NCBI GenBank assembly: GCA_022563885.1
Contig: JADFMM010000001.1
Location: 1-64,000 of the forward strand
DNA from: Planctomycetota bacterium
Lineage (GTDB): Bacteria; Planctomycetota; Phycisphaerae; Sedimentisphaerales; Anaerobacaceae
DNA length: 64,000 nt
Reading direction: 5' to 3'
Shown piece by piece: positions 1,864-23,233 of this stretch. The notes under the pieces were generated by a model. It was given only the letters and a program-made list of their open reading frames with translations, searched no databases and had not been told where the DNA came from. How positions within the stretch are numbered: position 1 is the first letter of the stretch; each line of letters starts with the position of its first letter. The position numbers were made by a program, and so were the translations under genes.

Positions 1864-3174
1864 TCACCCCGCGACGCGGTGCGTCTGCACAATCTCCTCA
1901 TAGAGATCCAACAGCTCTCGCGTCGTATCCCCGCTGTCAAACCGCGCTACGACGCCCTTTCTCCCTTGGCGACCGAGTTGCGCGGCCCGTTCGGGGTCGG
2001 CCAGCAGTGGTTTGAGGGCGTCGGCCAGGGCCGCGGGCGTCTGCTCCTGGTACAGGACACCGCCCTGGATCTGGGCCAACAGTTCCGAGAAGACGCCCGT
2101 GTCCGGCTGGACTACCGGTACCCCGGCGGCCCAGGCTTCCAAGACATAAAGACCGTAGGCAACGGGCCGTCTCTCGGGGACACTCATCACGCTGAGCGTC
2201 TGCAGGAAGCGGGCGCGATCCTGTTGATTGAACTCGGTGAGAAACTCGACATCCGCGCTGAGACCCAGCGCCGCGATACGCTGCTGGAGCTTGCGTACAT
2301 AGGCCTTGTCCTCGACGCTTCGGCCCCCGGCCAAACGCAGTCTGGCCTGGGCAAATGGCGGGTCCTGCTTGAGCAGGGCGAAGGCTTCGAGCAGCAGGTC
2401 CGCGCCCTTGGGGGGACAGAGTTGTGACAGGAAGCCGATGGTCGGCGCATCGGGGGCATCGGACCTGACCTCAAAGGCATCGACATCGATCCCGGCGCGT
2501 GCAACATGGATGCTGCCGGTGGCCAACCCCAGGCGCCGCTCCATGTGGTCGGCATAGTACCGGCTCACGGCCACGAAGGTGGTGACGTCCTGGGCCTTCT
2601 CTGCCAATATCTGCCAGGCCTGGTCCCGATAGGGCGGGATCAGATCATCGAGAAAACCATCTTCATCCTGGAGCAGACAGACGACCGGTATCCGCAGCCG
2701 CTCTTTGATCTGCCCTGCCAAGCCCAGCAAGAGGACATTGGAGAGACAGAGCAGATCCGGCTTGTTTTGGGGCTGTTCCAGCCAGTCGATGAGTTTGTGC
2801 AGTTCCTTGGCCTGGCGCCCTTCCTCCCCCTGCAACATGGAGAGCATCATCTCCCCCAGATCTCGGGCGCCAGTCATCCCCACACGCTTTCCCGCCCAGG
2901 TCAACAGACCGGTCTGGTCGAAGAGACGATCGATCCAGAGGGGCGTCCGGCGAAAGAGGGAAAACTTCTGCTGCAGGTAGACGTTGATGCCCCCAAAGAA
3001 GACACGGGTGGGCCGGCATTGTTCGACCTGGTCCAGATTCAGGGGCAGATAGAGCGGCATCATGAGGACTTCGTGACCGAGTTGCTGCATGGCCTTGACC
3101 AGGGCGACGTCACGCAGACAGTTCTCGCAGTAGAAGCTGCCTCCCGATCCCGGTGTCAGTTGGGCGATTTTCAT
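1864..3174 (-). CDS. GT4-family glycosyltransferase
   Basis: A 436-residue GT-B glycosyltransferase. The N-terminal domain starts MKIAQLTPGSGGSFYCENCL. The C-terminal nucleotide-sugar domain holds IGFLSQLCPPKGADLLLEAF and RLRLAGG, then a donor-site region EAWAAGVPVVQPDTGVFSEL, the usual position of the GT4 E-x7-E motif. Its ATG overlaps the stop of the DUF3179 gene (ATGA), so it is the last gene of the minus-strand group that begins near 8911. The acceptor is not known; the context suggests a small aromatic product or a cell-surface glycan. Confidence 0.85.
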   Translation of the reverse strand: MKIAQLTPGSGGSFYCENCLRDVALVKAMQQLGHEVLMMPLYLPLNLDQVEQCRPTRVFFGGINVYLQQKFSLFRRTPLWIDRLFDQTGLLTWAGKRVGMTGARDLGEMMLSMLQGEEGRQAKELHKLIDWLEQPQNKPDLLCLSNVLLLGLAGQIKERLRIPVVCLLQDEDGFLDDLIPPYRDQAWQILAEKAQDVTTFVAVSRYYADHMERRLGLATGSIHVARAGIDVDAFEVRSDAPDAPTIGFLSQLCPPKGADLLLEAFALLKQDPPFAQARLRLAGGRSVEDKAYVRKLQQRIAALGLSADVEFLTEFNQQDRARFLQTLSVMSVPERRPVAYGLYVLEAWAAGVPVVQPDTGVFSELLAQIQGGVLYQEQTPAALADALKPLLADPERAAQLGRQGRKGVVARFDSGDTTRELLDLYEEIVQTHRVAG

Positions 3175-5063
3175 GATTTTGGTTTCGTCCTCATGTCACT
3201 AGCCTCGACAAAGGCCGCGAGGTTTGACTGGAAGGTCTCGTCCTTCAGGAGCGGGGACCAGGTGATCTCGCTGTCGGGAAGTTGTCCCATTTCATAGTGC
3301 GGGTCGGCGTACATCAAGACCGGTGTCGAACGCAAGACCCAGGATCCCACCTGCAGGGCATGCGTGACTTCGGCGGCCACGATAGCCGCGCATTCGGGGT
3401 CGCGGCAGCGATAGAGGGCGAAGCGATCGCCTTCGATGGTGGCGGCGATGGCACTGAGCGTGCCGACGCGCAGTTGGCTGTGGGGGAGAAAGGCACAATC
3501 CACCAAGTCGTATCGCTTGCCCTCCAGATAACGGATAAGGGCAACAAAATGGCCCTCGCTCTCGACCGAGGGCATCAAGTCGGCGGCCCAACCGTCTGTG
3601 AGTTGCTTGGGCTGCACCAGCGGGGACCAGGGGGTCTCGTTGTCGGGGTAGTGAACCGTCTGAGTCGGTTCGGCAAAGCGCTTCACCGGATCGGACTCCA
3701 CCACGAAGGACCCCATGCGCAGGGCCCGCTTGCGCGCTGTCTTGGGGTCGAAGGGCCGGCAAAACCAGGCCCCCTGCAGGACCACGTAGTCTTGGGCGGC
3801 CGCGGCCGATGCGAACCGGTAGAGATTCAATCGGTCTTCTCCCTGGAAGACACAGATGCCCTCATGCGCCTCATGCGGCAGGGCCAGCTCTAATGCGACA
3901 TGGGAGAAGGTGAGTTTCGACTCCAGGGTGGCCAGTCGCTTGAGCACGGCTGCAAAGACCTCGACCTGGGGATAGGCCGGGAAGTTTGGATAATGGGGCT
4001 GCGGCTCGGACGAGAGGAAGAGTTCCGTCTGGGGATGGGGATAGATCCAGGCATGCCAACGGACATACTGCCAGCGCAGGGGCTGAAGGCCTTCGCCTGC
4101 CAGTGGACCCGAGGTGGCTCGGCCTTCGATGCTCCAGCAGGAACCGGTATCCAGGTCCCGAATCTCGCCCTGGTCCAGCTCGAAACTCAGCAGGCGGTCT
4201 CCCAGGAGGCGGCAAAAGGCCGACATGGTGACCTGTTCGGGAGCGGGACCGGCCAGCACCAGGATCGGACAGCCGCCCAGGTCGTCCTCGACCAGGCCGC
4301 CCTCCCGCTTCACCTCGGCCAGGGGGTAGGCACGGATACCGGCGTCCACGTTGATTCCGAGGACCATTTCGTTCTCCGGGTATTGATGGTCGAAGCAACC
4401 GGTGATGGTCTTGGCCAGGGGCGGGTCCATGCCCGGTCGGGAGAAGTACTCCTCGCGACCGTGGCCGTGCCGCGCGTCTCGATGATGGGGGTCCTTCGGC
4501 GCGGTCATGACGTCGGTCTCCGGGTGGGCGGTCATCCAGGCCTTCCAGGTCATGTGGTAGGTGGGTATCTGCTCGAGGAAGCGACCCTTCTGCGGCCCAT
4601 CGATGGCGACGCCTTCATAGTGCAGCCAGAGGCTGTGCGGCTCCGCCTTCTTTCCTCGTCTGCGGTTGACCATGGAGAGAGAGGCGTTGTACATGCCCAT
4701 CGCGCTGAACTTGGCCGCCTGACCATTGACCTCGGACACAAAGGCGGAACCCGATTGGCAGCGTTCACAGGTACTGAAGAGGATCGGCTTATCGGCGATC
4801 CTGTCGTTGATCATGTGGTAGTTGTCGGTGATCCAAAGAGGATAGGCACGACACTGGCCGGCGTATTCGAGACCCACCACGTAGTCGTCCGGCCGCATGT
4901 GACAGGCCTCATCGACCGAGACAAACTCGGGACGGTCCCAGCTGGCGATCAGTTTGCCGATATGCTGAGGGATCTCAAAATTTGCGGCGATCGTAGGGTC
5001 GTGGGGCGCCAGGCGGGCGGCCGCGATCTCGCTGCAGCCCAGGCCTAGATCGGCCAGGGTCAT
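3171..5063 (-). CDS. DUF3179 domain-containing protein
   Basis: A protein of about 630 residues. I chose the start MTLADLGLG at 5063 because its ATG overlaps the TGA of the upstream ligase gene (ATGA). The middle has the DUF3179 hallmarks: FVSVDEACHMRPDDYVVGLE, AYPLWITDNYHMINDRI, STCERCQSGSAF, and later DLDTGSCWSIEGRATSGPL followed by WYP-type HPQTEL. The C-terminal 230 residues contain two similar segments of about 100 residues (LNLYRFASAAAAQDYVVLQG and DRFALYRCRDPECAAIVAAE), which looks like a small duplicated domain. No signal peptide is evident. The function of DUF3179 is unknown. Confidence 0.85.
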   Translation of the reverse strand: MTLADLGLGCSEIAAARLAPHDPTIAANFEIPQHIGKLIASWDRPEFVSVDEACHMRPDDYVVGLEYAGQCRAYPLWITDNYHMINDRIADKPILFSTCERCQSGSAFVSEVNGQAAKFSAMGMYNASLSMVNRRRGKKAEPHSLWLHYEGVAIDGPQKGRFLEQIPTYHMTWKAWMTAHPETDVMTAPKDPHHRDARHGHGREEYFSRPGMDPPLAKTITGCFDHQYPENEMVLGINVDAGIRAYPLAEVKREGGLVEDDLGGCPILVLAGPAPEQVTMSAFCRLLGDRLLSFELDQGEIRDLDTGSCWSIEGRATSGPLAGEGLQPLRWQYVRWHAWIYPHPQTELFLSSEPQPHYPNFPAYPQVEVFAAVLKRLATLESKLTFSHVALELALPHEAHEGICVFQGEDRLNLYRFASAAAAQDYVVLQGAWFCRPFDPKTARKRALRMGSFVVESDPVKRFAEPTQTVHYPDNETPWSPLVQPKQLTDGWAADLMPSVESEGHFVALIRYLEGKRYDLVDCAFLPHSQLRVGTLSAIAATIEGDRFALYRCRDPECAAIVAAEVTHALQVGSWVLRSTPVLMYADPHYEMGQLPDSEITWSPLLKDETFQSNLAAFVEASDMRTKPKS

Positions 5064-6310
5064 GAGTCGACTCCTCGGCATTCGGCCAGCTTGATCCACC
5101 GTTTCGCCTTCATCTCGTAGCGCGGCAGGCTGCCCGCAGCCGCCAAGTCCACGGGGACCCGCAGAGTGAGCGTGCGTTGGATCCGCTGTTGCAGGTCCCG
5201 GCAGACCGACTCGCCGGCTTGGGCTTCGATGGTGATCTTCATCTCGGCCAGGTCTTCGGCCGTCCTAAGTTCCACTTGGTACTCCTCGATGCCGCCGGTC
5301 GCATAGACCAGTTCTTCGATGACGCTGGGAAAGACGTTAACGCCGCGAATGATGGCCATGTCGTCCTTGCGTCCCAGGATGCCGCCCAGCAGGCAGAGTT
5401 CGACGCTGCCGCAGGCGCAGGGCAGGCGGCGTTCGGCCCGAACCACGTCGCCGGTCCTGTAGCGCAGTAGCGGTGAGCCGGTACGACGTAGCGTCGTAAG
5501 GATCAACTCGTCGTCGATCACCTCCGGATAGTGGGCGTCTTCCATCACGTGCAAGACACCGGGTTCGGCCGGGCATGCATAGCTGACCGGACCGACCTCG
5601 GTCATGCCATGGTGATCGAAGACACGGGCACCCTGCCAGAGATGCGAAATATGCTTGCGGGTAGCGGGGATGCTTCCCCCCGGCTCGCCTGCCACCACGA
5701 TGCGACGGACATTCAACTCGCCCATGTCGATGCCTTCCTGTTGAGCGACGCGGGCCAGGCGAATGGCGTAGGTGGGGGTGCAGCAGAGGACCTCGGCCTG
5801 GGTGTCCACCAGCAGCCGCAGCCGAGCCTCGGAGGAGAGCCCGCCGGCAGGAATTCCCATGTGGCCCATCTTCATGGCGGCGTCATAGGCGGTCCAGAAG
5901 CCCAGGAAGGGGCCGAAGGAAAACGCGAAGAAGACCCGCTGCCCGCCTGTCACCCCGGCGGCGGTAAAGACACGAGCCCAGCAGTCCAGCAGGACATCCC
6001 ATGATTCCCGGGTATCGAGCCAGATCATGGGATGACTGGTGCTGCCGCTGGTACGATGGAATCGGACGTAGCGTTCCCTAGGATAGGTGAGATTGCTGCC
6101 GAAGGGTGGATGAGCAAGCTGGTCTTCGGTCCACTCCTTCCGGGTCGTGAAGGGCATGCGCTCGCTGAACTGCTCGAGCGTCATTCTGTCGAGATCGAGT
6201 CCTGCGTCCTTGAGCCTCGGGGTGTAGAAGGCATTGCCCGGGATCAAGTCCTGGCACAGGGTGCGAAGCGCTTCGGTCTGCCCCTGCCTGAGGACCCCGA
6301 CATCATTCAT
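5060..6310 (-). CDS. Phenylacetate-CoA ligase (PaaK)-like adenylating enzyme
   Basis: An acyl/aryl-adenylating enzyme of the PaaK branch, about 416 residues. Signature pieces are RFHRTSGSTSHPMIWLDTRE (P-loop-like TSGST), VFDHHGMTEVGPVSYACPAE, LLRYRTGDVV and the C-terminal lid with RGVNVFPSVIEELV. The start at 6310 (MNDVGVLRQGQ) overlaps the end of the permease gene. The family activates phenylacetate or other aryl acids as CoA thioesters with ATP. The nearby chorismate-lyase-like gene makes an aryl acid such as 4-hydroxybenzoate a reasonable substrate (inference). Confidence 0.85.
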   Translation of the reverse strand: MNDVGVLRQGQTEALRTLCQDLIPGNAFYTPRLKDAGLDLDRMTLEQFSERMPFTTRKEWTEDQLAHPPFGSNLTYPRERYVRFHRTSGSTSHPMIWLDTRESWDVLLDCWARVFTAAGVTGGQRVFFAFSFGPFLGFWTAYDAAMKMGHMGIPAGGLSSEARLRLLVDTQAEVLCCTPTYAIRLARVAQQEGIDMGELNVRRIVVAGEPGGSIPATRKHISHLWQGARVFDHHGMTEVGPVSYACPAEPGVLHVMEDAHYPEVIDDELILTTLRRTGSPLLRYRTGDVVRAERRLPCACGSVELCLLGGILGRKDDMAIIRGVNVFPSVIEELVYATGGIEEYQVELRTAEDLAEMKITIEAQAGESVCRDLQQRIQRTLTLRVPVDLAAAGSLPRYEMKAKRWIKLAECRGVDS

Positions 6311-6863
6311 TGGCAGTGTCCCCCGTTGCATGGGCCGCTGCCCGGGCCGCCGGGGGTGCCGCAGCGCCCGGCGTCGGCTTGTAGAGCGTGACGAGCGATG
6401 CGCCGATGACGGCCAAGAGAATGCCCGCGAAGAAGGGAAGCGGTATGGATTTCCAGCCGCCTTGAGGCGGATGGAGGGTCAGGGCGACGATGGCGTTGAC
6501 GATGGGCGCACCGGCGAAGATGATAGTCATCACGGTGGCCGGCGTTCCCTTGGCCCCGAAGGCGAGCAAGACGCAGAAGGCACCGGCCGCTCCGACCAGG
6601 CCCGCAATCAGCGACCAGGACATGCCCTTCATGGGAAAGGACCAGGAGGCGCCCTTGGCGACGAGCATGCCGGCCGGCGCCAGGACCGCCACCAGGAAAT
6701 AGGCCAGTCCCACCCAGAGGAAGGCCTTGTAGCGGCCATTCACCGGGTCTGCCATGCCGATCTGCCCGGAGTGCAGAAAGACGCCATAGAGTCCCCAGAA
6801 GAGCACTGTCATCAGTGCGAAGATCAGCCACATCATTCCACCGCTTGCGCTTGGGTTCGGCAT
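6303..6863 (-). CDS. Small EamA/DMT-like membrane protein
   Basis: A 186-residue protein with about five hydrophobic segments (MMWLIFALMTVLFWGLYGVF, FLWVGLAYFLVAVLAPAGML, LIAGLVGAAGAFCVLLAFGA, VMTIIFAGAPIVNAIVAL, PFFAGILLAVIGASLVTLY) and an Ala-rich tail. This is the size of a half EamA transporter that would work as a dimer. It lies between the flavoprotein and ligase genes with short or overlapping junctions, so it may carry a substrate or product of the cluster. Substrate and direction cannot be told from sequence. Confidence 0.75.
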   Translation of the reverse strand: MPNPSASGGMMWLIFALMTVLFWGLYGVFLHSGQIGMADPVNGRYKAFLWVGLAYFLVAVLAPAGMLVAKGASWSFPMKGMSWSLIAGLVGAAGAFCVLLAFGAKGTPATVMTIIFAGAPIVNAIVALTLHPPQGGWKSIPLPFFAGILLAVIGASLVTLYKPTPGAAAPPAARAAAHATGDTANE

Positions 6864-6883
6864 TGAGTCGTCTCCTAAACTAA

Positions 6884-8137
6884 TTACATCTTGGCCCGTC
6901 CATGTGTAATGGCATCCGGCAAATCGAGGAACTCAGACAGTCCGCGATTCAACTCGCTGAAGTCCCGGTCCAGATGACCAATCAGACAGTCCGTGATGGC
7001 CCCCTTGAGGTGGGGGTGTTTGGTAATAATCTGTTTGAAGCTGAAGTCCCGTGCGTAGAAGGCGTAGACCAGGCGCCTGAGAATTTCAATCCGCGTGCAC
7101 ATGGTCTCACCGTAGCTCCGGAATCGTTTGCCCGAAAGGTCATCCTGGGCGAAGCCCTCGATGATGGCGTCCGCCGCCAATTCGCCGCTCACCAGGGCCA
7201 GGTAGAGGCCGGTCGAGAAGACCGGATCGAGGAAGGAGAGCGCGTCCCCCACCAAGACCAGGCCCGCCTTGGCGCAGTATCTGGCACGATAGGATGTGTG
7301 CACGCAGGCGTAGTAATCGCCTTCGACCCTTCCCGGGGCAAGGTGCTCTCGAATCCAGACGTTCTTACCCACCTCACGCTTGAAGATGGTGGCAAGGTCG
7401 CCGGTGTCTCGGTAGAGATAGTCCCGGTCCCCCACCGCCCCGACGCTGACGAGATCGTCGCGGAGGGGGATGTACCAGAACCAGTTCTTGCCCTCCAGAT
7501 AGGTGATGGTCGTGGCCCCCTCGTCGCGTCCCGGATCGCGTTTGGCGCCTCGGTAGTAGGCCCAGATAGCCCACTTTTTCAGGCCCTTATCGTCGATGCG
7601 CCACTTGAGGTTTCGCATGGCGAGTCCCGCCCCCCCGCTGGCATCGACCGTCATCCGGGCGACAAATGGCTGCGATCCGCCTGGGCCGTCCGAGCACTCC
7701 ACTCCGACGGTCCTGTCCCCCTCTTCGATGAGCCTCTCGGCCCGCAGGCCTTCAAAAACCTCGACGCCGTGCTCGCGGGCGTTGTCCATTAGGCTCGCGT
7801 CGAACACGTCCCGCGTCACCTGCCAGGTCTGGGCGCAGGGATGATCCAGGTGCTCGGAGAAGTAGAAGGGTTGTGACTGCCTGCCGCTGCGGCCCACGAA
7901 CTGAACGCTGTACTTCTTGGGGAAATCCAGGGCCGCCATCTTCTCGATCATGCCAATACGCGCCAGAGGAAAGTAGTTGTAGGGAATCATCGACTCCCCG
8001 ACCTTGTAGCGGGGAAACCTCTGCCCTTCGATCAGCGCGACACGCAAATCGGCATCGGCCAAAACCGTTGCCGCCGTCAGTCCCGCGGGACCGCCGCCCA
8101 CGACAAGGCAGTCGTACTCTCTCGTTGCGCTCGCCAT
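6884..8137 (-). CDS. FAD-dependent oxidoreductase, flavin-halogenase-like
   Basis: A flavoprotein of about 417 residues. The start is placed at MASATREYDCLVVGGGPAGL; the 13 residues upstream run towards the inserted repeat A2. The N-terminal GGGPAGL Rossmann motif binds FAD, followed by GESMIPYNYFPLARIG. A NWFWYIPL segment resembles the GWxWxIP signature of flavin-dependent halogenases, and LVGDALSFLDPVFSTGLYLA is the second FAD motif. The family covers halogenases, geranylgeranyl-reductase-like enzymes and aryl hydroxylases. A halogenating role is only a possibility, since the W-x-W-x-I-P motif starts with N instead of G. It lies in the same direction as the ligase and chorismate-lyase-like genes. 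Confidence 0.8.
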   Translation of the reverse strand: MASATREYDCLVVGGGPAGLTAATVLADADLRVALIEGQRFPRYKVGESMIPYNYFPLARIGMIEKMAALDFPKKYSVQFVGRSGRQSQPFYFSEHLDHPCAQTWQVTRDVFDASLMDNAREHGVEVFEGLRAERLIEEGDRTVGVECSDGPGGSQPFVARMTVDASGGAGLAMRNLKWRIDDKGLKKWAIWAYYRGAKRDPGRDEGATTITYLEGKNWFWYIPLRDDLVSVGAVGDRDYLYRDTGDLATIFKREVGKNVWIREHLAPGRVEGDYYACVHTSYRARYCAKAGLVLVGDALSFLDPVFSTGLYLALVSGELAADAIIEGFAQDDLSGKRFRSYGETMCTRIEILRRLVYAFYARDFSFKQIITKHPHLKGAITDCLIGHLDRDFSELNRGLSEFLDLPDAITHGRAKM

Positions 8138-8168
8138 CGCTAGTCTTTTCCGAATTCTTCTTCGCTTA

Positions 8169-8348
8169 GGAACCACGCATCATTAAATGATCCATTTCTC
8201 ATCTCATCTTCGCGTCATCTTCAGCCGCTTCTCAATCGCGAAATCCTCCGCAGTAGGACAACTACAACTCTGGTTTCGCTCAATCGGGCGCGACTGAATC
8301 TGACGCAAATCTGAGCGATAAATGACTCATTTAATGATGTGCGGCTCC
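8169..8348 (-). mobile_element. Repeat class A, copy A2 (180 bp, MITE-like)
   Basis: An inverted copy of A1 with the same length and about 95% identity, bounded by GGAACCACGCATCATTAAAT and GATGTGCGGCTCC. Its right end lies inside the reading frame of the chorismate-lyase-like gene and supplies that gene's last six codons and stop (EPHIIK then TGA). It separates this gene from the flavoprotein gene, with which it was probably once closely linked. Confidence 0.85.
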
Positions 8349-8911
8349 AGCGGTGGAAGGATTTCAAACACCGCGGCAATCGCATGCCCGTTGGGGGCCA
8401 CCAGCCGGTGTCGTCGCCCGAAGAGATCCGAGGAGACGGACACGCCAAAGATGTCGGAGAAGAAGGCCGCCGGTCGCATCTTGAAGTACCTGAGCGTTTC
8501 GACGGAGTGGGGACAGTCGCAGCGCTTCAAGACCGTGCCCAAGGGCAGCTTGGCCTCCCTGATCAGTTTTGACGCCTCCTCAGGCAGGTAACGATGAAAG
8601 ACCCAACTCGCGCCATACTCGACCGCGTGGTCATCCGACTGACGACGCAAGATGACCTCCCGACTCGTTTCTTGCTCATCCTGCACCATGTTGAGTGGGT
8701 CGATATAGACGGGCCCGGCGTGGAAGGCCTCCAGCGTCGACGTCATGTTCCGATCATGGACCAACAGCTTCCGGTAGGGCTGCGGAATGTCCTTAGCGGT
8801 CAATGGGGTAATGTCAGGGATTTTGCGCCCGTTGCTCGCGTAGAAGGCGTTCAACGGCCAGAGCGGGGATTTGCTCTGCTCAGGCAGGTCGTCCGGATAG
8901 GCCAGGTTCAC
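8327..8911 (-). CDS. Chorismate pyruvate-lyase-like protein (UbiC/DUF98 fold)
   Basis: A 194-residue protein with the layout of chorismate-lyase-like proteins: LLVHDRNMTSTLEAFHAGPV, then VEYGASWVFHRYLPEEASKL, PLGTVLKRCDCPHS, MRPAAFFSDIFGV, and the closing LFGRRHRLVAPNGHAIAAVFEILPP. Family members cleave chorismate to 4-hydroxybenzoate and pyruvate. Assignment is by motif spacing and is moderate. The family-type C-terminus EILPP is followed by six residues encoded by inserted repeat A2, so the natural end was altered slightly. It heads the minus-strand group running down to the glycosyltransferase. Confidence 0.7.
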   Translation of the reverse strand: MNLAYPDDLPEQSKSPLWPLNAFYASNGRKIPDITPLTAKDIPQPYRKLLVHDRNMTSTLEAFHAGPVYIDPLNMVQDEQETSREVILRRQSDDHAVEYGASWVFHRYLPEEASKLIREAKLPLGTVLKRCDCPHSVETLRYFKMRPAAFFSDIFGVSVSSDLFGRRHRLVAPNGHAIAAVFEILPPLEPHIIK

Positions 8912-9100: not shown

Positions 9101-10537
9101 TTACAACGCGGCTTGAGCCTCTTGCGTCACCTGGTACGCGCGCGCGCGGAAGAGGAAGTCGATGATGCTGCCTTCGTGGGGCTGTAACCAGTTCAGTTTG
9201 CTGGTGGGAATGGGGCCGATGTTCAGGCGATCGATGTGGCTGGCGGCGGTGAGGTCGCCGATCAGTTTCTCGTTGTTCGTGATGCCGGTGCAGACCAGAG
9301 TCGGGCCGATCTTGGCGACCAGTTGGTCTTCGGGGCATTCGACAACCGTCGAGAAGGGGAACATGTATTCTTTGTTCGCAATCTCGCGTTCCGGGGAATC
9401 GCAGTGCACCACCATCGGTCGCAAGTACGAGCAGCGTTCTTGCTCGACCAAGCGCGGCCCGAATTGTTCTGTCATGTCGGTGACGCCGTCTTCCTTCAAA
9501 TCGGCTTCGATCATCAACCACACCGCCTTGCCCATGCCGGGAACGGTGAAGGCTGCCAGACCGGCTTGGGGATCTGTCGGCGGTTTGACCTCGATCGGGC
9601 CAATCTTATCGGCGATGGCCCGCGCGATCTCCTTGGTATGTCGCGAAGCCCAAACGCCCGAGCAATTGATGCAACCACGGCCACTGTTGATGGTGATGCT
9701 CTCGACCATCAAGTCCAGGTACTTCTCCCAGTCATCGACGACGTCGTCGGCCAACAGGATCTTCGCAAAGCCGGGACCGTGGGCTTGGACGCGTGGGTTG
9801 CCTCGGTACTGCTCGACGGTAGCCGTTCCGCCGAAGATCATCGCCCGCTCGGAAGCCGCCAAGACCGCGGCGCCGGCTTCCGGGCCGCCCGGGTACAAGG
9901 CGAAGACCTCCTTCGGGATGCCGGCTTCCGTGAAGGCCGCCATCATGCGGTAGGGAGTCCACGGTTCCTGTGGACCGGGTTTCAAGACCAGACCCATCTG
10001 CAGGGGAATCGCGGGCAACCACAAGGTGTGAACGCCCGGCGAATTGGAGGGCAAAACCGCGCTCAGTACGGATGTCTGCGCTTGATAGCTCACGACGACG
10101 CCCCGATGCTCGATCCCGTAACCGCGTGTCAGGATATTGAGATCCAAACCGCGGGTCAGGCAGTCCAGGATCTTCTGCATGTTACGCAACACGAACGAAT
10201 TTTTGGCCATGTTCTGCCGGCACATGTGCTCCGGCAGTCCTGTGCTGGCGGACTGCTGATGAGCGAACTGATCGGGGCTTTGGCTGCCGTCGCCGATGGG
10301 CAGCGACTCGTTCTCGTAAAGATCGGCGGCCTTTTTCAATAGTTCGATGATCTCGGTGCAGGGAATGTCTCGCAGAATCTGACGCGCCTTCTTGGCTTGC
10401 CGCATGTCGCGCGCTATGATGCCCCCGTTGGCTTGACTCACCTTGGCAATCGGTTCACCGGTCGAAAAATGGAGAACCTCGTCGACCTCCAAGGATTCAT
10501 AGGGCTTGCCCCAGCGGATGACAGGAATATTGAGCAC
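9101..10537 (-). CDS. Aldehyde dehydrogenase-family protein, possibly an acyl-CoA/acyl-ester reductase
   Basis: About 478 residues. I start it at the GTG at 10537 (reading LNIPVIRWGKPYESLEVDEV) because an AGGGAGAC ribosome site lies just upstream; the longer open frame has no such support. The ALDH-type active-site cysteine region is SITINSGRGCINCSGVWAS, and the Rossmann part includes ALYPGGPEAGAAVLAASERA. The C-terminal half has FPFSTVVECPEDQLVAKIGP. It follows an adenylating enzyme in the same direction, 67 bp apart, which recalls LuxE/LuxC-type carboxylic acid reduction. Whether it is oxidising or reducing cannot be told. Confidence 0.75.
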   Translation of the reverse strand: MLNIPVIRWGKPYESLEVDEVLHFSTGEPIAKVSQANGGIIARDMRQAKKARQILRDIPCTEIIELLKKAADLYENESLPIGDGSQSPDQFAHQQSASTGLPEHMCRQNMAKNSFVLRNMQKILDCLTRGLDLNILTRGYGIEHRGVVVSYQAQTSVLSAVLPSNSPGVHTLWLPAIPLQMGLVLKPGPQEPWTPYRMMAAFTEAGIPKEVFALYPGGPEAGAAVLAASERAMIFGGTATVEQYRGNPRVQAHGPGFAKILLADDVVDDWEKYLDLMVESITINSGRGCINCSGVWASRHTKEIARAIADKIGPIEVKPPTDPQAGLAAFTVPGMGKAVWLMIEADLKEDGVTDMTEQFGPRLVEQERCSYLRPMVVHCDSPEREIANKEYMFPFSTVVECPEDQLVAKIGPTLVCTGITNNEKLIGDLTAASHIDRLNIGPIPTSKLNWLQPHEGSIIDFLFRARAYQVTQEAQAAL

Positions 10538-10604
10538 GGTTGTAGTCTCCCTAATTGGGGTGAGAGTTGGACTCGACATGAGTAGCAATCTTCGCGCCCA
10601 CTGT

Positions 10605-11735
10605 CTAGTAGACGCCCACTGTGGTCTGCGCAGCGAAGCCGTGGAAGGGTCGTACACCGCTGACGCCATCCCACGGATAGGTCTCGAACGGTCGCTCGCG
10701 TTCGCCCTCATCGCGTTCCAAGAAGCCGGGAACGAAGAATTCCTTGGTGAGTGTCGTCAGCTTGACTCGCCCTGTTTCGCCGTAGCCGACGGCTTGCTGA
10801 TCGTCATCAAAGCCGACCACTTCAATGACCGCGCGGGGTTGTGGGGCGTAATAAGTGATCTTGTAATCGTCCGCGGCGGTAACCGGCTTGCTGCACGCCA
10901 GGCCCATCAGCGTGTTGCCATAGGTCGGGGTCATATAGATGCCGCTCACGTCGGGTGGACCGCCGAAATACTCTTCGATGCAGAACCGCGTCCACTGCGG
11001 TGTGAACTCTGTTCCACCCGAGAAGATGCCGGTGATCCCGGTGTCCGGGAAACTTTTGCCTTGCTCTTCGAGGGCATTGCAGAGGCCTTCCAACAGTTTG
11101 GGCGTGGCGAACAGGCACTTGATGTCATGCCCGGCGGTAAGGATCGTTAGCGCCTGATCGATGCAATGCTTCTTGTACGCCTCGAGGTGTTCCATCCAGC
11201 CCTTCTTGATCAGCTTAACAACCCAGCGTGGATCGAGATCGACACAGAAATTGATGCCACCGCGAAACTGGGCCAGGTGTTCAACGGCCAGCCGCAGTCG
11301 CCGCGGCCCCGAAGGCCCGAGCATCAGCCAGTTCGCGCCCCTGGGGAAGTACTGGTCGGGGAGCGTGTCGCTGAACAGTTCATAATCCGTCCAATGATCT
11401 TCGATCACCATGCGGCTCTTGGGAATTCCCGTGGTACCACCGGTCTCGAATACATAGACCGGCTTGCCTTCGAAGCCCTTGGGCACCCAACGACTCATCG
11501 GCCCCCCCCGGAGCCAGTCGTCTTCGAACGGCGGGAACTTCTTCATGTCGTGGTAACACTTGACCTCGGTCAGCGGATCAAAGCTCAGCTCCGACCGCTT
11601 TTGCAGCCAGAACGGGCTTCCCGTCGACTCGTGGAAGTGCCACTGGACAATCTCGTGGGTGTGGGCGTCGAGCGATGCTTGCGCTTCCTTTTCCCGGGCC
11701 TCTAGACTGGCGGCCGACGATTCGGCTGTGCTCAT
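10605..11735 (-). CDS. LuxE/PaaK-like adenylate-forming enzyme
   Basis: A 376-residue protein of the LuxE/PaaK type. The adenylation motif is YVFETGGTTGIPKSRMVIED, followed by GITGIFSGGTEFTPQWTRFC and TPTYGNTLMGLACSKPV, and a late GYGETGRVKLTTLTKEFFVP. The usual C-terminal lid domain of PaaK is short or absent, as in LuxE. It probably activates a carboxylic acid and passes it to the neighbouring aldehyde dehydrogenase. The substrate may be a fatty or aryl acid; the nearby chorismate-lyase-like gene makes aryl worth testing. Confidence 0.75.
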   Translation of the reverse strand: MSTAESSAASLEAREKEAQASLDAHTHEIVQWHFHESTGSPFWLQKRSELSFDPLTEVKCYHDMKKFPPFEDDWLRGGPMSRWVPKGFEGKPVYVFETGGTTGIPKSRMVIEDHWTDYELFSDTLPDQYFPRGANWLMLGPSGPRRLRLAVEHLAQFRGGINFCVDLDPRWVVKLIKKGWMEHLEAYKKHCIDQALTILTAGHDIKCLFATPKLLEGLCNALEEQGKSFPDTGITGIFSGGTEFTPQWTRFCIEEYFGGPPDVSGIYMTPTYGNTLMGLACSKPVTAADDYKITYYAPQPRAVIEVVGFDDDQQAVGYGETGRVKLTTLTKEFFVPGFLERDEGERERPFETYPWDGVSGVRPFHGFAAQTTVGVY

Positions 11736-11999: not shown

Positions 12000-13709
12000 C
12001 TATTCGCTTCTCAGTTCTTTCAATTCTTCCTCCATGGAATTTTTGGGCATTAGGTCGCCTTTGGCCCCGGCAATGGATATGCCTTTTTTCAGAATGGCCA
12101 TGGCCTCATCTGAATGGTTGTTTTTTTTGAGCGCTGATCCTAGCAGGGCATAGGCAGCGGAATACTGTTCATTATTGTTTATAACCATTTTCAGGGCCTG
12201 GATAGAGTCTTCATATTTCCCTGTCTCTAAATACAATTGTCCAAGTCCAAAATTTGCGACCTCATCTTCCGCATCCATTTCGAGAACCTGCTTGAAAATA
12301 TTCAAGCGCCGCTCTTGATCGGCAATCTTCTCTTTCTCCTGGCTGTCTTGATCTGTTTTTTGTTTATGACCTTTGGCCGCAAGTGTCCATCCAATGGCGG
12401 TGGCCTTGGCTTGTTCTTCTTCCGCTTTTTCTTTCCAGCCTTTTAACATATACAGACGGGACAGGTTTGTTCGGGCCATCACTGCCTTGGGGTCTAGGTA
12501 AGCAAACTTCTTATTGAGGACAATGGCTCCGTCAATATTGCCGGTTTTTTCTAAGACTACGCTCAGGGCCTCATGGGCATCTGAGTCATAAGAATTAATG
12601 GCAATGGCCTTTTCAAAATGTTCTTGAGCCGCGGGGTAATCATTGCCATGGTAAAGGTTCATGCCTGCTGTATATTCCTCTTTGGCTTTTTCCGTGATTC
12701 CCGGTGGCACATAAAATGGAGGTCGGCAAACGGTAGCCTTTAATTTTTGATCGCCAACTTGTATTTCAATTTCATTTTCCTGGGATTGTAGGTTGCGGTT
12801 TAAATAAGCGAAATAAATTGAAGCATTAAGTGTAGGGGACCATACTCCGCTTTTAATAGGACCGCTGGTCTTTCCATTGAATTGTATGCTTTCTCCAGGT
12901 GGAATGTTGACCTGATCTTTAATTTTCAGTCCCATTAGTTTTTTCTGAAGCTGGCCCCTGCTTTTGGTTCGAGCCACGATCTCCTGTCCGGGAAAACACC
13001 CTTTATCCAAATCGACTATTTCTTCATCTAAGCCGATTTCCAATAGCATAGTGGTCTCATCCATGTCTTTGCCGTAGACGGGAATTCCTGATTCCGTTCG
13101 AAGGACGTTTAAGACTTCCAGGCTGCAGGGATGCGCATGAGGGGGGAGGGACTGATTGGTAAGGCAATTTATCAAATCTTCTTCTTGGGCAATATCACAG
13201 AGGAGTAGATAGCCTGCTTCTCCAGTGAAAGAGCGCTGAACGATTTTGGTTTCCACATTCTGAATTTGGCCTGTTATAAGTCCGTTTACCCCCAAGGATT
13301 CTAACGCGGTTTGGGAGCTTAGCCTGACTTCAAGGCAGTCTAAGGAAGAGGGGCCCTGAACGGCCAAAATGGCTGTTTGTCCGGAAATATCTTTAAAACT
13401 AATGTCTTCATTAAAATGAAATTGATTGAATAGTTTTAAAATTTGGGGCAGCTGAGATTTTTCGGAGACAATGATGTGTTTTTGGTCTTCACGATAAAGC
13501 CAGAATTCAGCCTTGATATAGGACTTTGGGGTTAGGAAGGCATTATGCTGGCCTTGCCCTGGATCAAGGGCATTGACATCATTGCAGGTAAGGGCTTGCA
13601 GAAAGGAGACACGATCTTGACCTTCTAGGGCAAGAAGTCCATGGGTTTCGGAGAGATTGAATAAAGCGCCTTTGGAACGCGCTAGAGAAACTGCTTCTGA
13701 TATATCCAT
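12000..13709 (-). CDS. YgfZ/GcvT-like folate-binding protein fused to TPR repeats
   Basis: A 569-residue protein. Residues 1 to about 330 are a YgfZ-type tRNA-modifying-GTPase-like/GcvT-fold domain with the family signature DKGCFPGQEIVARTKSRGQL. YgfZ helps the synthesis or repair of some Fe-S enzymes and uses tetrahydrofolate. From about residue 345 the protein continues as tetratricopeptide repeats (AAQEHFEKAIAINSYDSDAH, AVMARTNLSRLYMLKGWKEK, DEVANFGLGQLYLETGKYED). The fusion is unusual; YgfZ proteins normally end near 330 residues. It directly abuts the A-type carrier gene with no gap. The DNA is clearly AT-richer than its flanks, suggesting transfer. Confidence 0.85.
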   Translation of the reverse strand: MDISEAVSLARSKGALFNLSETHGLLALEGQDRVSFLQALTCNDVNALDPGQGQHNAFLTPKSYIKAEFWLYREDQKHIIVSEKSQLPQILKLFNQFHFNEDISFKDISGQTAILAVQGPSSLDCLEVRLSSQTALESLGVNGLITGQIQNVETKIVQRSFTGEAGYLLLCDIAQEEDLINCLTNQSLPPHAHPCSLEVLNVLRTESGIPVYGKDMDETTMLLEIGLDEEIVDLDKGCFPGQEIVARTKSRGQLQKKLMGLKIKDQVNIPPGESIQFNGKTSGPIKSGVWSPTLNASIYFAYLNRNLQSQENEIEIQVGDQKLKATVCRPPFYVPPGITEKAKEEYTAGMNLYHGNDYPAAQEHFEKAIAINSYDSDAHEALSVVLEKTGNIDGAIVLNKKFAYLDPKAVMARTNLSRLYMLKGWKEKAEEEQAKATAIGWTLAAKGHKQKTDQDSQEKEKIADQERRLNIFKQVLEMDAEDEVANFGLGQLYLETGKYEDSIQALKMVINNNEQYSAAYALLGSALKKNNHSDEAMAILKKGISIAGAKGDLMPKNSMEEELKELRSE

Positions 13710-14051
13710 TCAAACTGAAAAAGATTCCCCACAACCACAGGTATTGGTGGCATTCGGATTATTGAATTTGAAACCATGATCTTTTAAACCGGCTTCGTAT
13801 TCCAGGACAACGTCTTTTAAATAAAGGCTGCTTTTCGGATCCACAAATACGTTGAATAATCCCTCTGTTTGAACCCGGTCATTTTCCTGTTGGGTCCCCA
13901 ATTCAAAGACATAGGATAATCCTGAGCAACCCCCGCCTTTGACGCCAATTCTGAGTCCAATATCGGGGCGGCCATCTTCTTTCACCATGCGGGCAATCTC
14001 TTGAGTTGCCGTTTCTGTGAGTGCCAATATTTTTGCCGTTTCAGTCTTCAT
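13710..14051 (-). CDS. A-type iron-sulfur cluster carrier (IscA/ErpA family)
   Basis: A 113-residue HesB-like protein with the three conserved cysteines: GVKGGGCSGLSYVF in the middle and TCGCGESFSV at the C-terminus. Family members carry [2Fe-2S] or [4Fe-4S] clusters to apo-enzymes. The gene is immediately followed by YgfZ-TPR, which also acts in Fe-S enzyme maturation, so the pair forms a small two-gene unit. Both share an AT-rich composition unlike the rest of the window. Confidence 0.9.
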   Translation of the reverse strand: MKTETAKILALTETATQEIARMVKEDGRPDIGLRIGVKGGGCSGLSYVFELGTQQENDRVQTEGLFNVFVDPKSSLYLKDVVLEYEAGLKDHGFKFNNPNATNTCGCGESFSV

Positions 14052-14385: not shown

Positions 14386-15813
14386 TCATTTCACGTTCTC
14401 ATTCGCAATCGCATACAGCTTTGACTTGGTGGCGATGTAGAGCACACCGTTGGCCGCCGTAGGCGTGGTATACACATTCTCGTCGAATTTCATGACGTTG
14501 ATGACCCTCTTGGTCCTGCCGTGGGCGAAGATGGTCAGGTCTCGGTTTTCGGCCCCGATGTAGACCTTGCCGTCGACCAGCATGGGAGAGCCCCATATGG
14601 CCGATTTGAGGTTGTGCGTCCAGATGGCCTTGCCGGTAGTGACATCCAGGCAGTAGAACTTGCCTTCCAAGTCAGCGATGTACAGCAGCCCATCCGCGAT
14701 GGCGACCGTGCTCAGGGTGCGACCGAAGTCGGCCCCGCCGCGATGCCACTTGCCATGGGTGGCGGTGACATCTCCCTTGCCCGCCGGGTCGATACAGTGC
14801 AGGTGACCGACCCCGGTGCCGTGTTCAGGATCCTGACCGACGCCCACATAGACCCTGCCGTCCACGAACACGGGCGTGGCGATGATATTGTTCTTGGTCC
14901 CGTAGCCACCGAGTTCCCAGACAGAGTCGGCGGGGTTGCAATTGAATTTCCAGATCAGTTTGCCCGTCTTGGCATCCAGCCCATACATCCAGCCATCGCC
15001 CCCGGGAAAGAATATCTGCATCCTGCCATTGACCGAGCCCGCCGAGCAGGAAGACCATTGGCCATGAAGGACCTGGCCGTGGACCACAAACTCCCAGGCC
15101 CACTCGCCGGAATTCTTGTTGAAAGCCACGACACTCGGTGAGGTCTGCGAGGGAATGCCAAGATGTCCCTCGTCGACACCGTTCCCGGTCACAAAATAGA
15201 GCAATTCCCCCAAAATCAGAGAGGAAGAGGTCGCAAGGTTGTGGGGGAAGACGCCCAGTTCTTCGATCATATCGTGACGCCATATAATATCGGCCTTTCC
15301 TTTGCCTTGGTAGGCCTCATCGGTCACGCCAAGATTCTTCTGGCCCAAGCCCTCCACGGTGACGCAGATGGCTTCGCATCGATTGTTGAGGTACCAGGCA
15401 CGATTGCCCTCCACTTCGACCGCGGAACAGATGCCCTGTAAGGGCCAGTCGTTGACGCGACCCGCCTTGAGCTTGTCGTGGACAGCCTGCCAGAGGAAGG
15501 ATCCGTCCGATTCCTTGAAACAGAGAATATTGCCCTTGTCCCCGTCGACGGCCTTGTCATACAGACCCGAATTGTTCGTCCCCACATAGATGCGCCCCCC
15601 GGCAACCACCGGATTGCCGTAGGCCAGCGAGCCCAGCGGCTTGACCCATTTGATGTTCTCACCCGTCTGGATGTTCCACTGAGTAGGCATGTTCTTTTCA
15701 GTGCTGTTGACCATGTTGCGTCCGAGACCTCCGCCCCAGTGGGGCCAGTCGGCCGCGAAGCTTGGCAGAGCGACGGTTAGTAAGAGTACGAGGCTGATCA
15801 TTCGTCTAAGCAT
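14386..15813 (-). CDS. Secreted PQQ-type beta-propeller protein (short)
   Basis: About 475 residues. The start MLRRMISLVLLL at 15813 is preceded by AGGAGAAG, 7 bp upstream. A cleavable signal peptide ends near LPSFA, followed by ADWPHWGGG, a motif common to secreted PQQ-like propellers. Several blades repeat the pattern of a strand, then GKLIWKF, GKFYCLDVTTGKAIW or SKLYAIANE. Such proteins are usually not quinoprotein dehydrogenases; no Ca/PQQ site can be seen. It is the last of three related genes in tandem and probably derives from duplication. The role is unknown; periplasmic or surface scaffolding is likely. Confidence 0.85.
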   Translation of the reverse strand: MLRRMISLVLLLTVALPSFAADWPHWGGGLGRNMVNSTEKNMPTQWNIQTGENIKWVKPLGSLAYGNPVVAGGRIYVGTNNSGLYDKAVDGDKGNILCFKESDGSFLWQAVHDKLKAGRVNDWPLQGICSAVEVEGNRAWYLNNRCEAICVTVEGLGQKNLGVTDEAYQGKGKADIIWRHDMIEELGVFPHNLATSSSLILGELLYFVTGNGVDEGHLGIPSQTSPSVVAFNKNSGEWAWEFVVHGQVLHGQWSSCSAGSVNGRMQIFFPGGDGWMYGLDAKTGKLIWKFNCNPADSVWELGGYGTKNNIIATPVFVDGRVYVGVGQDPEHGTGVGHLHCIDPAGKGDVTATHGKWHRGGADFGRTLSTVAIADGLLYIADLEGKFYCLDVTTGKAIWTHNLKSAIWGSPMLVDGKVYIGAENRDLTIFAHGRTKRVINVMKFDENVYTTPTAANGVLYIATKSKLYAIANENVK

Positions 15814-15875
15814 GAGTCTTCTCCTAGTATATGAGCACCCTGTCAACTGAAGGCATTCCAGTGCACATGAACGTG

Positions 15876-18095
15876 TTAGGGATTGGGCGTAATACTGACA
15901 TTGTCAAACAGGACCTCGGTCCCCTTGGACTTTTCGGTGATGGAGACGGCATAGGCGTAGAGGCCGGGACTGCCGGCGAGGTTGGGCGTCGCGTCCTCCA
16001 TCGTCAGGGTCCACGCCTGGGGCTCGTCCTCACCGCGGGCCCAGACCTTGGCGGCCACCTGAGCCTTGCCACGGACAATATCCACGCTCAGCTTGCTGGT
16101 ATACCAGGTGTCAGCCTTCCACGGGAACTCGATCTCCTTGACGATACGCGGGACGGCCGCCCAGGACACCAGGCGTAGCTTTCGGGTCCGCTCGGTGGTC
16201 CCGGTGAGGATCAGGAGGTAACGGCTGTTGATGAGTCCCATGTCGGGCAGAAATCGTCTTTTCTTGACCTTTCCCAACATATCCGACTGAACCGTGTAGC
16301 CGGCTTCGATGGGCGGCATCATATAGCAACGCAAGCGGGCAAAGGGCGGTGAGGGTCGATCTGCTGTCTTCAGCAGGACCTTTTCGCCCTCATGCTCGAC
16401 CACTTTGGCCTTGAGCGGGGAGGTGATCCAACCCGCCGGGGCGGCCCCGATGGCGATGTCGTCAAAGTTTTCAACATAGGGGAGTCGAGGGACAATCCTT
16501 ACCCGGGCCGCGGCCTTCATGTCACCTGAAGTCGCGGTGACCAACCCCGCCTGAATCCGCGTCCCCGCGGCCCGAAACCCGCCCCGGGGCCCCAGTTCGC
16601 CGGCCAGGCCGGCGCTCGTGAAGGAGGCCCTGACCCGACCCGTGGCCGTTCCCTTGGCATCGAAGCCCTGCGCGACGAAGGTGACCTCGTCACCCGGGGC
16701 CATGACCACTTCGGCAGGTTCTACGCGGATGGTCACAGCCTTACCGGCGACGATCTTGTCCGCGGGACCGAACACAGCATCTGTCCCCGGGGAGCGATAC
16801 CCCGGTCTCTTTTTGGAAATGCAGAAGGTTCGCGTCATGGTCGAGAGGATGACGCGTCCGTGGGCCACGGCCGCCGTGGCGTAGACCTCGTCCGGGGCGT
16901 CGCCGTCCCGGAAGAAGCGTTGCTTGCTCAGCAGGGAGCAACCCTCCCGATTCGCCTCGAGAATGGCCCAGCCTCCCGGTACGTCGCTGACGTAAATTTT
17001 GCCATCGGCCACGACCGGCGACCCTTTGGCCTCGTTACCGTAGTTAAAGTCCCAATAGACCTCGCCGGTGACGGCGTCCACACAAAATAGGTTGGCCGCG
17101 TTGTTGGCCACATAGATCAGGCCATCGTGCAGGGCCGGCGAACTGTATTGGCCGGTCAGGCCGTCTACCCGCCAGATCTCCGTGCCCCGGCGGGCGTCCA
17201 GGCAGACCAGTCGGCCCATGTTCCCGGTGTCAACGTTGGTTTCGCCTTGCACGGCATAGACGCGTCCCCTGTCGTAGACGACGGAACTCATGATCCCCAC
17301 CCTGCTGAAGGGAAAGCGCCAGAGCGTTTCGCCGGTGGTGGGTCGCATGGCGGCGATGCTGCCGTCGGCCAGACCGGTAAACATGACGCGGGCCCCATCC
17401 AGGGTCGTCGTCACCGGCACCGAGTAGGTCGTCACCAGGGGACGTTCGCCCGCCGGTGTCACCCACTTGATGACGCCCGTTCTCTTGTCCAAGCCATAGA
17501 AACGGTGCGCCCCGGGCCCGTGCGACCCCCAGCCGCTGGTCAGCGAGCTGATAATGACTTCGTCGCCTTCCAGGATAGGACTGATGGTCCGTCCGCCGTA
17601 GCCCGAGATGCGGCCCAGTTCCTCGGTGAGCGAGTGTTGCCAGATCACCTTGCCGTCCCTGTCGAAGCAGAAGAACATCCCCTGGACACCGTGAGCATAG
17701 ATATAGCCCGTGCCGGGATCGCCGGCGAGGTTGGTCCATCCGAGGCGGTGAAAGACCACGTCCGTGAGGAAGGCGTTGAAACGATGTTCCCATAAAGTGC
17801 GACCGGTATCCAAATCCAGCGCGATCACGCGTTCCTGCCGCGACTGGCCCTCTCCGGCCCGGGAGATCAAGTAGACTCTGCCGTTCATGATCAAGGGGGT
17901 GGAACGACACCCCACGGGGACCTGCCACATCAGGTTTTCGCCCTGCGGAGACCAGGTGGAGGGCAGGTCTGTTTCCGGAGAGGTGCCCAGTTGATTGGCA
18001 CCACGCCAGTGCGGCCAATCGGCCCAGAGCGTCCCCGCGCCCATCAGCACCAGCATGAGGCTCAAGCGTCCAAACCTGACCGTATGACTCATCAT
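15876..18095 (-). CDS. Secreted PQQ-type beta-propeller with C-terminal Ig-like and LamG-like region
   Basis: About 740 residues. The start is placed at MMSHTVRFGRL, after AAAGGAG. The signal peptide ends near GTLWA, followed by DWPHWRGANQLG. Residues to about 450 form the propeller (IALDLDTGRTLWEHRFN, FYGLDKRTGVIKW, LFCVDAVTGEVYWDF). A segment rich in beta-strands follows (TIRVEPAEVVMAPGDEVTFV), then a region of about 200 residues starting YVENFDDIAIGAAPAGW that resembles LamG/3-keto-disaccharide-hydrolase-like sugar-binding folds. This end may bind a polysaccharide (inference). Its 5' end lies just before the stop of the next propeller gene upstream. Confidence 0.8.
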   Translation of the reverse strand: MMSHTVRFGRLSLMLVLMGAGTLWADWPHWRGANQLGTSPETDLPSTWSPQGENLMWQVPVGCRSTPLIMNGRVYLISRAGEGQSRQERVIALDLDTGRTLWEHRFNAFLTDVVFHRLGWTNLAGDPGTGYIYAHGVQGMFFCFDRDGKVIWQHSLTEELGRISGYGGRTISPILEGDEVIISSLTSGWGSHGPGAHRFYGLDKRTGVIKWVTPAGERPLVTTYSVPVTTTLDGARVMFTGLADGSIAAMRPTTGETLWRFPFSRVGIMSSVVYDRGRVYAVQGETNVDTGNMGRLVCLDARRGTEIWRVDGLTGQYSSPALHDGLIYVANNAANLFCVDAVTGEVYWDFNYGNEAKGSPVVADGKIYVSDVPGGWAILEANREGCSLLSKQRFFRDGDAPDEVYATAAVAHGRVILSTMTRTFCISKKRPGYRSPGTDAVFGPADKIVAGKAVTIRVEPAEVVMAPGDEVTFVAQGFDAKGTATGRVRASFTSAGLAGELGPRGGFRAAGTRIQAGLVTATSGDMKAAARVRIVPRLPYVENFDDIAIGAAPAGWITSPLKAKVVEHEGEKVLLKTADRPSPPFARLRCYMMPPIEAGYTVQSDMLGKVKKRRFLPDMGLINSRYLLILTGTTERTRKLRLVSWAAVPRIVKEIEFPWKADTWYTSKLSVDIVRGKAQVAAKVWARGEDEPQAWTLTMEDATPNLAGSPGLYAYAVSITEKSKGTEVLFDNVSITPNP

Positions 18096-18106
18096 CTTCT
18101 GCTCCT

Positions 18107-19336: not shown

Positions 19337-19779
19337 GCGTCCTCCTTCTCAGAATCATTAGGGATCCGATAGGCCTGCAACTTCTCTACGATGTCCCCGG
19401 GCACAGCAACGGCCTTCAATTGATGAGCAGGACCAACTTCGCAGCAGGCGCAGGTCGAGTGGCCCTTGGCCAACACATTTCCCGCTTGCACGATCTGGGC
19501 CTCGTAGGTGATCGACTTGGCGCCAAGTCGGGCGACACCTAGATGGACCTCTATTTCGCCGGGGAAGCGAACCGGACGCAGGTACTCGAACCCACAGGAG
19601 ACGCGGGGCCAACCGAGCGGGCGCTCTTCCGGCCGGGCGACGACCGGTATACCCAGTTTCCGCAAAAGCTCATGCTCGGCCGTCTCCATGTAGCGGAAGA
19701 AAGTGGCAAAATGGACGATGCCCGCCATGTCCGTGTCCATGAACTCGACACGTCTGCGCGTCACAAACGCGTTCTTCAT
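19333..19779 (-). CDS. Acyl-CoA thioesterase, 4HBT/YbgC-type hotdog fold
   Basis: A 148-residue single hotdog domain. The active-site region TRRRVEFMDTDMAGIVHFATFFRY has the catalytic Asp (D before MAG) and the helix of 4-hydroxybenzoyl-CoA thioesterase/YbgC proteins, followed by ELLRKLGIPV. It overlaps both neighbours by ATGA, the TRAP permease upstream and a propeller downstream, so the three are one transcription and translation unit. A link with the imported carboxylate (transport, activation, release) is likely but not shown. Confidence 0.85.
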   Translation of the reverse strand: MKNAFVTRRRVEFMDTDMAGIVHFATFFRYMETAEHELLRKLGIPVVARPEERPLGWPRVSCGFEYLRPVRFPGEIEVHLGVARLGAKSITYEAQIVQAGNVLAKGHSTCACCEVGPAHQLKAVAVPGDIVEKLQAYRIPNDSEKEDA

Positions 19780-22881: not shown

Positions 22882-23233
22882 GCTTATCTCCACATTCACG
22901 TTTTTAGGACCTTCTCCACTCTATACCTCACGGCTCAGTTTCTGTTCTGGGGCGGACAAAGTCCCGCATACTAGTAAAAAGGCAGGGACGCGTCAAACGG
23001 CTCAAGGACTAGATGAAATGTGCCTTGAAACACGACCTGAGGGGCGGCAGCAATTTGAAGTATTGCAGAAACAGCTTGAAATCGCTGACACCGTGTATAT
23101 AGTAGTTTGCCCTAAGGAACTTAATAATAGGCCTGCCGGTGCCCGGTATCCACCCAGAAATAGTCCATTGAACGCACTGTCATCGGTCAGTCCAAAAACG
23201 AGGGCGCTGGGTCACGAAAACAAGGAACCCCCA
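22882..23233. other. Divergent intergenic region
   Basis: About 350 bp separate the TAXI lipoprotein gene (minus) from the Mrp gene (plus). The plus-strand frame is open upstream of the Mrp start but shows no similarity to anything I know. Promoters for both directions should lie here; none is clear enough to call. Confidence 0.4.

Follow-up and report, generated by a model that had tools for sequence, protein, structure and literature searches.

The first 64,000 nucleotides of contig JADFMM010000001.1 from a Planctomycetota bacterium (GenBank assembly GCA_022563885.1), hereafter the window, carry a minus-strand gene group at positions 1864 to 8911 for which an aryl-acid pathway based on 4-hydroxybenzoate had been proposed from the sequence alone (the original prediction). 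We found its six open reading frames (ORFs) where they had been placed and on that strand: in order of position, a GT4 glycosyltransferase, a DUF3179 protein, a PaaK-like ligase, a small permease, a flavoprotein, and a chorismate-lyase-like protein. The reported overlaps of 4 to 8 bp were recovered using start Met positions common to relatives (GT4/DUF3179, 4 bp; DUF3179/PaaK, 4 bp; PaaK/permease, 8 bp). The content of the group stood as described but was incomplete, since genes encoding an EhpG-like and an EhpF-like protein, its most informative partners, lie directly upstream and had been overlooked; the same-strand run continues to 22899. Because the window starts at contig base 1 and a peroxiredoxin gene on the plus strand faces the GT4 gene, the operon probably ends there. 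In what follows, G, L, C, and f numbers are our labels for genomes, loci, contigs, and families.

We compared the occurrence of the lyase-like protein, the EhpF-like protein, and the flavoprotein in one set of 392 Planctomycetota genomes. The lyase-like protein was present in 67 genomes; the EhpF-like protein and the flavoprotein were each present in 88, the latter counted at a strong cut that was set after the score gap was seen. All 67 lyase genomes held both of the other proteins (naive Fisher p about 3e-57 each, values that ignore shared ancestry), and the EhpF-like protein and the flavoprotein occurred together in 85/88. Contrasts within families support linkage of the three despite these ancestry-blind values: in f10, G297 holds all three proteins and G170, G241, and G286 hold none; in f11, G419 holds all three and G306 and G348 none. 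The wider gene set was found in about one in six of the sampled planctomycete genomes.

Gene order recurred as well. Scanning the contigs of named genomes with the EhpF-like alignment gave 80 loci in Planctomycetota, Acidobacteria, Poribacteria, KSB1, Calditrichia, and Opitutae. Recurring neighbors there encode aldehyde dehydrogenase, iron-dependent alcohol dehydrogenase (Fe-ADH), PQQ propellers, a HemN/HemW-related radical SAM protein, GT4, and a LolD/FtsX-type ABC pair, and a subset of loci also carries lyase, flavoprotein, thioesterase, permease, and PaaK-like genes. Across 60 phylum-wide lyase loci, the commonest full order, found in several families, was symporter-EhpF-EhpG-ADH-PQQ-radical SAM-lyase-FAD-GT4-thioesterase-permease-PaaK-ABC. 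A flavoprotein gene lay within the 10-kb range considered in 31 of these loci and was the immediate neighbor of the lyase gene in all 31. Radical SAM genes were near the lyase gene in 43/60 loci and Fe-ADH genes in 31/60, with at least seven of nine partners present in 15. In many complete f35 genomes the run is shorter (ADH-PQQ-radical SAM-lyase-FAD), and the EhpF/EhpG-like pair is encoded at a separate locus. The full order is also seen in Opitutae, though with no flavoprotein gene close by; the Opitutae loci L052 and L054 carry the lyase gene within the cluster. Co-occurrence of the genes in other genomes, the lack of which would have told against the original prediction, is confirmed across Planctomycetota and in Opitutae, and the phyletic profile taken together with the recurring order strongly supports a single pathway.

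The lyase-like protein alone gave no match in a PDB sequence search and no BLASTP alignment with UbiC; the relationship is visible only by profile and structure. For an AlphaFold2 (AF2) model built from an alignment of seven relatives (pLDDT 83.7), the best PDB match in Foldseek was 2nwi (AF1396, DUF98; TMt 0.77); next came GntR-regulator UTRA domains and product-bound UbiC 1g81 (E 8.9e-5). Aligning the lyase profile with Escherichia coli UbiC by hhalign (E 4.3e-5, probability 69%) paired R84 with the Arg in the WLREILL motif of UbiC and E183 with the TELFLP Glu, which in the mature numbering used for the UbiC structures are R76 and E155. R84 and E183 were invariant in 63/63 phylum-wide relatives, as were PxG and GR motifs. 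The chorismate-binding Arg and Glu, whose absence the original prediction had named as telling against it, are therefore both in place. In the model, the protein has the chorismate lyase fold; judging from its sequence, it is a divergent subfamily beyond the reach of the curated Pfam model. Together these analyses suggest a putative chorismate lyase, the product of which may be 4- or 3-hydroxybenzoate.

A PDB profile search with the flavoprotein returned the FADH2 halogenases 8zop, CndH, ChlB4, 5buk, PltA, CmlS, and RadH at 151 to 228 bits, with the uncharacterized 3nix scoring within the same group; the next scores were far lower, at 62 bits (tetracycline halogenases) and 61 bits (a geranylgeranyl reductase). 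Its K88 aligned with K76, the catalytic Lys of CndH, and was kept in 36/37 relatives, among which the WxWxIP motif was found in 35/37 and GxGxxG and the S-x-G loop (SxG) each in 37/37. Pfam, the profile scores, and these motifs confirm the halogenase-like call, and predicted membership in the FADH2-halogenase clade is well supported.

EhpF was the sole PDB match of the EhpF-like protein and covered its full length. We call the adjacent protein EhpG-like for its aldehyde dehydrogenase family and its pairing with the EhpF-like gene; its Cys347 was kept in 44/44 relatives. In an ehp-type phenazine cluster, ehpG (aldehyde dehydrogenase family) adjoins ehpF (AMP-binding) (PMC11278526), and EhpF-O turn phenazine-1,6-dicarboxylic acid into D-alanylgriseoluteic acid, the precursor of which bears a hydroxymethyl group (PMC3175449). 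By analogy, the pair in the window would reduce an aryl carboxylate to the aldehyde. A LuxE/LuxC label for the pair was rejected: the only Pfam models to match were AMP-binding and Aldedh, and the PDB search pointed to EhpF. The pair (9101 to 11735) is 80 to 81% identical to that at L013, a Planctomycetaceae metagenome-assembled genome, and 54%/41% identical to that of G002, which belongs to the genus of the window genome, whereas G002 holds the closest relatives of the flavoprotein, PaaK, permease, and lyase. Apparently, a foreign pair has taken the place of the original one beside the lyase gene.

The PaaK-like and GT4 calls were borne out by the matches given in Table 1. The permease-like protein had no Pfam match; its orthologue at L011 matches EamA at 2e-4, below the cut-off, and the window permease is 77% identical to that of L009. 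An Fe-ADH orthologue (53% identical) lies on contig C436 of the window genome, only 4 bases away from the kind of symporter usual in the cluster, so the pathway seems to be split between two loci in this genome. The thioesterase gene in L009 is also adjoined by a similar TRAP-type permease gene.

Table 1. Features of the minus-strand run; the start of the EhpG-like gene was set near 10579 from relatives.
Feature	Position	Strand	Basis and remarks
GT4-family glycosyltransferase	1864..3174	-	Pfam PF00534 9.5e-25; orthologues in G040 and many lyase loci
DUF3179 protein, CxxC (CERC), uncharacterized C-terminal half	3171..5063 (ORF to 5099)	-	Pfam PF11376 3.7e-41
PaaK-like aryl-CoA ligase	5060..6310 (ORF to 6331)	-	AMP-binding_C_2 9.7e-14; phenylacetate-CoA ligase 4r1l E 2.6e-61
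Small EamA-type membrane protein, possible flippase/permease	6303..6863	-	L011 orthologue weakly EamA-like
Flavin-dependent-halogenase-clade flavoprotein	6884..8137 (ORF to 8176)	-	Trp_halogenase 5.4e-28; conserved motifs
Chorismate-lyase-like protein	8327..8911	-	AF2 model, Foldseek, hhalign to UbiC, R84 and E183
EhpG-like aldehyde dehydrogenase (acyl-adenylate or acyl-thioester reductase)	9101..10579 (ORF to 10711)	-	Aldedh 6.5e-24
EhpF-like adenylating enzyme without C-terminal domain	10605..11735	-	PDB 3l2k/3hgu (EhpF) E 1.6e-55
GcvT/YgfZ-like protein fused to TPRs	12000..13709	-	Insertion relative to L009; pathway role doubtful
IscA/HesB-like Fe-S protein	13710..14051	-	By inspection; insertion relative to L009
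PQQ-type beta-propeller protein	14386..15846	-	Pfam PQQ_2 3.6e-21
PQQ-type beta-propeller protein	15876..18125	-	Pfam PQQ_2 3.2e-32
PQQ-type beta-propeller protein	18107..19336	-	Pfam PQQ_2 9.2e-41
YbgC/4-hydroxybenzoyl-CoA-thioesterase-family (4HBT) hotdog protein	19333..19779	-	PDB 1z54, 5wh9, 1bvq
TRAP-type transporter permease	19776..21791	-	By inspection; 4-bp overlap with thioesterase gene
TAXI-type solute-binding protein	21850..22899	-	By inspection

Within this run, the YgfZ-TPR and IscA-like genes (12000 to 14051) form an insertion that separates the EhpF-like gene from the propellers and that L009 lacks at this place. Cluster GT4 proteins carry an N-terminal CxxC (C16, C19) in 23/24 cases, a feature not known to be typical of GT4 enzymes. 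At L136-L139, L147, L148, L155, L165, L170, and L174, the lyase gene adjoins genes for a DUF116-polyprenyl synthetase fusion and a squalene-cyclase-repeat-like protein, often with a second radical SAM gene, which may mark a prenylated branch of the pathway. By inspection, the flavoprotein gene at L216, L220, and L222, loci from lyase-negative genomes of one family, lies near a gene for a CobW-like GTPase and 4Fe-4S ferredoxin-like genes, with a GcvH-like protein also encoded at L216 and L220 and a DUF116-like protein at L220.

The gene linkage and the chorismate-lyase-like, halogenase-like, and PaaK-like assignments of the proposed aryl-acid pathway thus held, but the membership of DUF3179, which was to have gained a pathway context, did not. 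DUF3179 occurred near the lyase gene only in the window and L009/G002, members of one genus; in the phylum draw this was 1/60 lyase loci. The window genome holds three further DUF3179 matches elsewhere. Since it adjoins the lyase gene in this genus only, a pathway context is unsupported. We rejected DUF3179 as a pathway member on co-occurrence, and the gene appears to be a local passenger, not a conserved part of the pathway. One published list of selenoprotein families that carry a UxxC/T motif includes DUF3179 (PMC9312934), and with the CxxC (CERC) of the window copy this makes a redox role possible. The C-terminal half of the protein (3171 to 4000) resembles two copies of one domain with similar PDxExxWSPL motifs; a single-sequence AF2 model (pLDDT 36) was too low in confidence for use.

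We see about an even chance that the core genes form one widely shared aryl-acid pathway leading from chorismate to 4-hydroxybenzoate and on through halogenation or oxidation, reduction, glycosylation, and export. The lyase-like protein would cleave chorismate to 4-hydroxybenzoate and pyruvate. The PaaK-like ligase would handle an aryl-CoA, the 4HBT thioesterase serving for release, and the flavoprotein would halogenate (or hydroxylate) the ring. The EhpF-like enzyme would then adenylate the aryl carboxylate and the EhpG-like dehydrogenase would reduce it via its Cys to an aldehyde, which Fe-ADH, encoded elsewhere in the window genome beside a Na+/solute symporter, would convert to the alcohol. 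Finally, the GT4 enzyme would attach a sugar and the membrane proteins would move the product. The functional linkage of the lyase, flavoprotein, and EhpF-like protein is supported by the data, as are fold, family, and catalytic residues; we infer the order of steps, the substrates, the choice between halogenation and hydroxylation, the product, the glycosylation target, and export. As a functional unit the genes are well supported, the reaction scheme is moderately supported, and the product is not supported at all.

Besides the ancestry-blind Fisher values, several observations weigh against this pathway. The lyase-like protein had no Pfam match at E <= 0.1, chorismate lyase models included, and halogenase motifs are no proof of halogenation. 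The window genome has no close radical SAM orthologue (best, 26%), no flavoprotein gene lies near the Opitutae clusters, and 21 EhpF-positive genomes have no detected lyase. Two complete-looking clusters, in G076 and G259, have no obvious lyase substitute nearby among the genes listed; G259 has a weak lyase match beside a PaaK-like gene elsewhere in its genome. The cluster-linked transporters (SSS, TRAP) belong to importer families and, together with a PaaK-like ligase, a 4HBT thioesterase, and an Fe-ADH, all common in catabolism, would suit uptake and breakdown of aromatic or other acids instead of biosynthesis. We consider such a route quite improbable, as a chorismate lyase makes an aryl acid de novo, ring-cleavage and beta-oxidation genes were not seen, and GT4 and export-type ABC genes recur.

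Alternatively, a prenylated or quinone-like compound could carry 4-hydroxybenzoate as its head group, in which case the flavoprotein would be a monooxygenase or reductase and not a halogenase. The DUF116-polyprenyl synthetase fusion next to the lyase gene at L165 and related loci is consistent with this, as are matches of the flavoprotein to geranylgeranyl-reductase and QhpG models. However, we saw no UbiA-type prenyltransferase among the neighbors that recur, the flavoprotein scored far higher against halogenases than against geranylgeranyl reductase (151 to 228 versus 61 bits), and the EhpF/EhpG-like pair would be left unexplained; we regard a prenylated product as unlikely. That the lyase-like protein binds a ligand through a UTRA fold and is no enzyme is very unlikely: its Foldseek matches also included many effector domains of GntR proteins, which belong to the same superfamily, but it has no DNA-binding domain, its top structural matches are DUF98 and not GntR, and the R84 and E183 that hhalign pairs with those of UbiC are kept in 63/63 relatives. 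Accidental proximity of genes without a common function is hardly credible; it would account for the DUF3179 and YgfZ-TPR/IscA genes, which are local insertions, but for the core genes it is already contradicted by the phyletic profile and recurring order.

In a phylum where many genes are unexplained, the almost perfect agreement of three proteins in where they are present and absent points to a real and undescribed single pathway, and the open-access literature that we searched held no description of this gene set or combination. For organisms from which few metabolites have been characterized, the set lays out a route from chorismate to an aryl product that can be tested, and it lacks polyketide synthase (PKS) and nonribosomal peptide synthetase (NRPS) marks, on which cluster-finding tools usually rely. 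More tentatively, we suggest a widespread, undescribed biosynthetic route in Planctomycetota and sister phyla that involves no PKS, NRPS, or carrier protein and in which 4-hydroxybenzoate might be halogenated, reduced to an aryl alcohol by the EhpF/EhpG-like enzymes and Fe-ADH, and exported as a glycoconjugate. Such a route could provide alichondrichlorin and similar planctomycete compounds with their aromatic unit.

Aryl polyene and xanthomonadin clusters share with this one a 4-hydroxybenzoate supply, an AMP ligase, a halogenase-like flavoprotein, and a 4HBT thioesterase. They and resorcinol clusters differ from it in that no ketosynthase or acyl carrier protein was found here among the scanned window genes or the recurring neighbors (the rest of the genome was not searched), in keeping with the original prediction that this is no standard aryl polyene or resorcinol cluster. 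Two planctomycete compounds, 3,5-dibromo-p-anisic acid (strain 10988) and alichondrichlorin (Alienimonas chondri), contain a halogenated, 4-hydroxybenzoate-type unit and are likened here by compound only; the genes for alichondrichlorin are reported as unknown, and for 3,5-dibromo-p-anisic acid there are postulated candidates only (PMC12078418). In bmp-type bromophenol clusters, such as the 4-BP cluster, a chorismate lyase is combined with a flavin-dependent halogenase and a P450 (PMC10579414). The likeness lies in one cluster passing 4-hydroxybenzoate from a chorismate lyase to a flavin-dependent halogenase. In contrast, the present set has the EhpF/EhpG-like pair, PaaK, thioesterase, radical SAM, GT4, and propellers, its lyase is closest in fold to DUF98 AF1396, and no P450 was recognized in the window group or in the part of the recurring neighbors that was scanned. 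The ehp cluster for D-alanylgriseoluteic acid likewise draws on chorismate and sets an ANL adenylating enzyme without a C-terminal domain beside an aldehyde dehydrogenase to act on an aromatic acid; phenazine core genes are absent here, and a hydroxybenzoate is the probable substrate. Among described systems, the bmp-type clusters and the EhpF/EhpG step of griseoluteic acid synthesis come closest.

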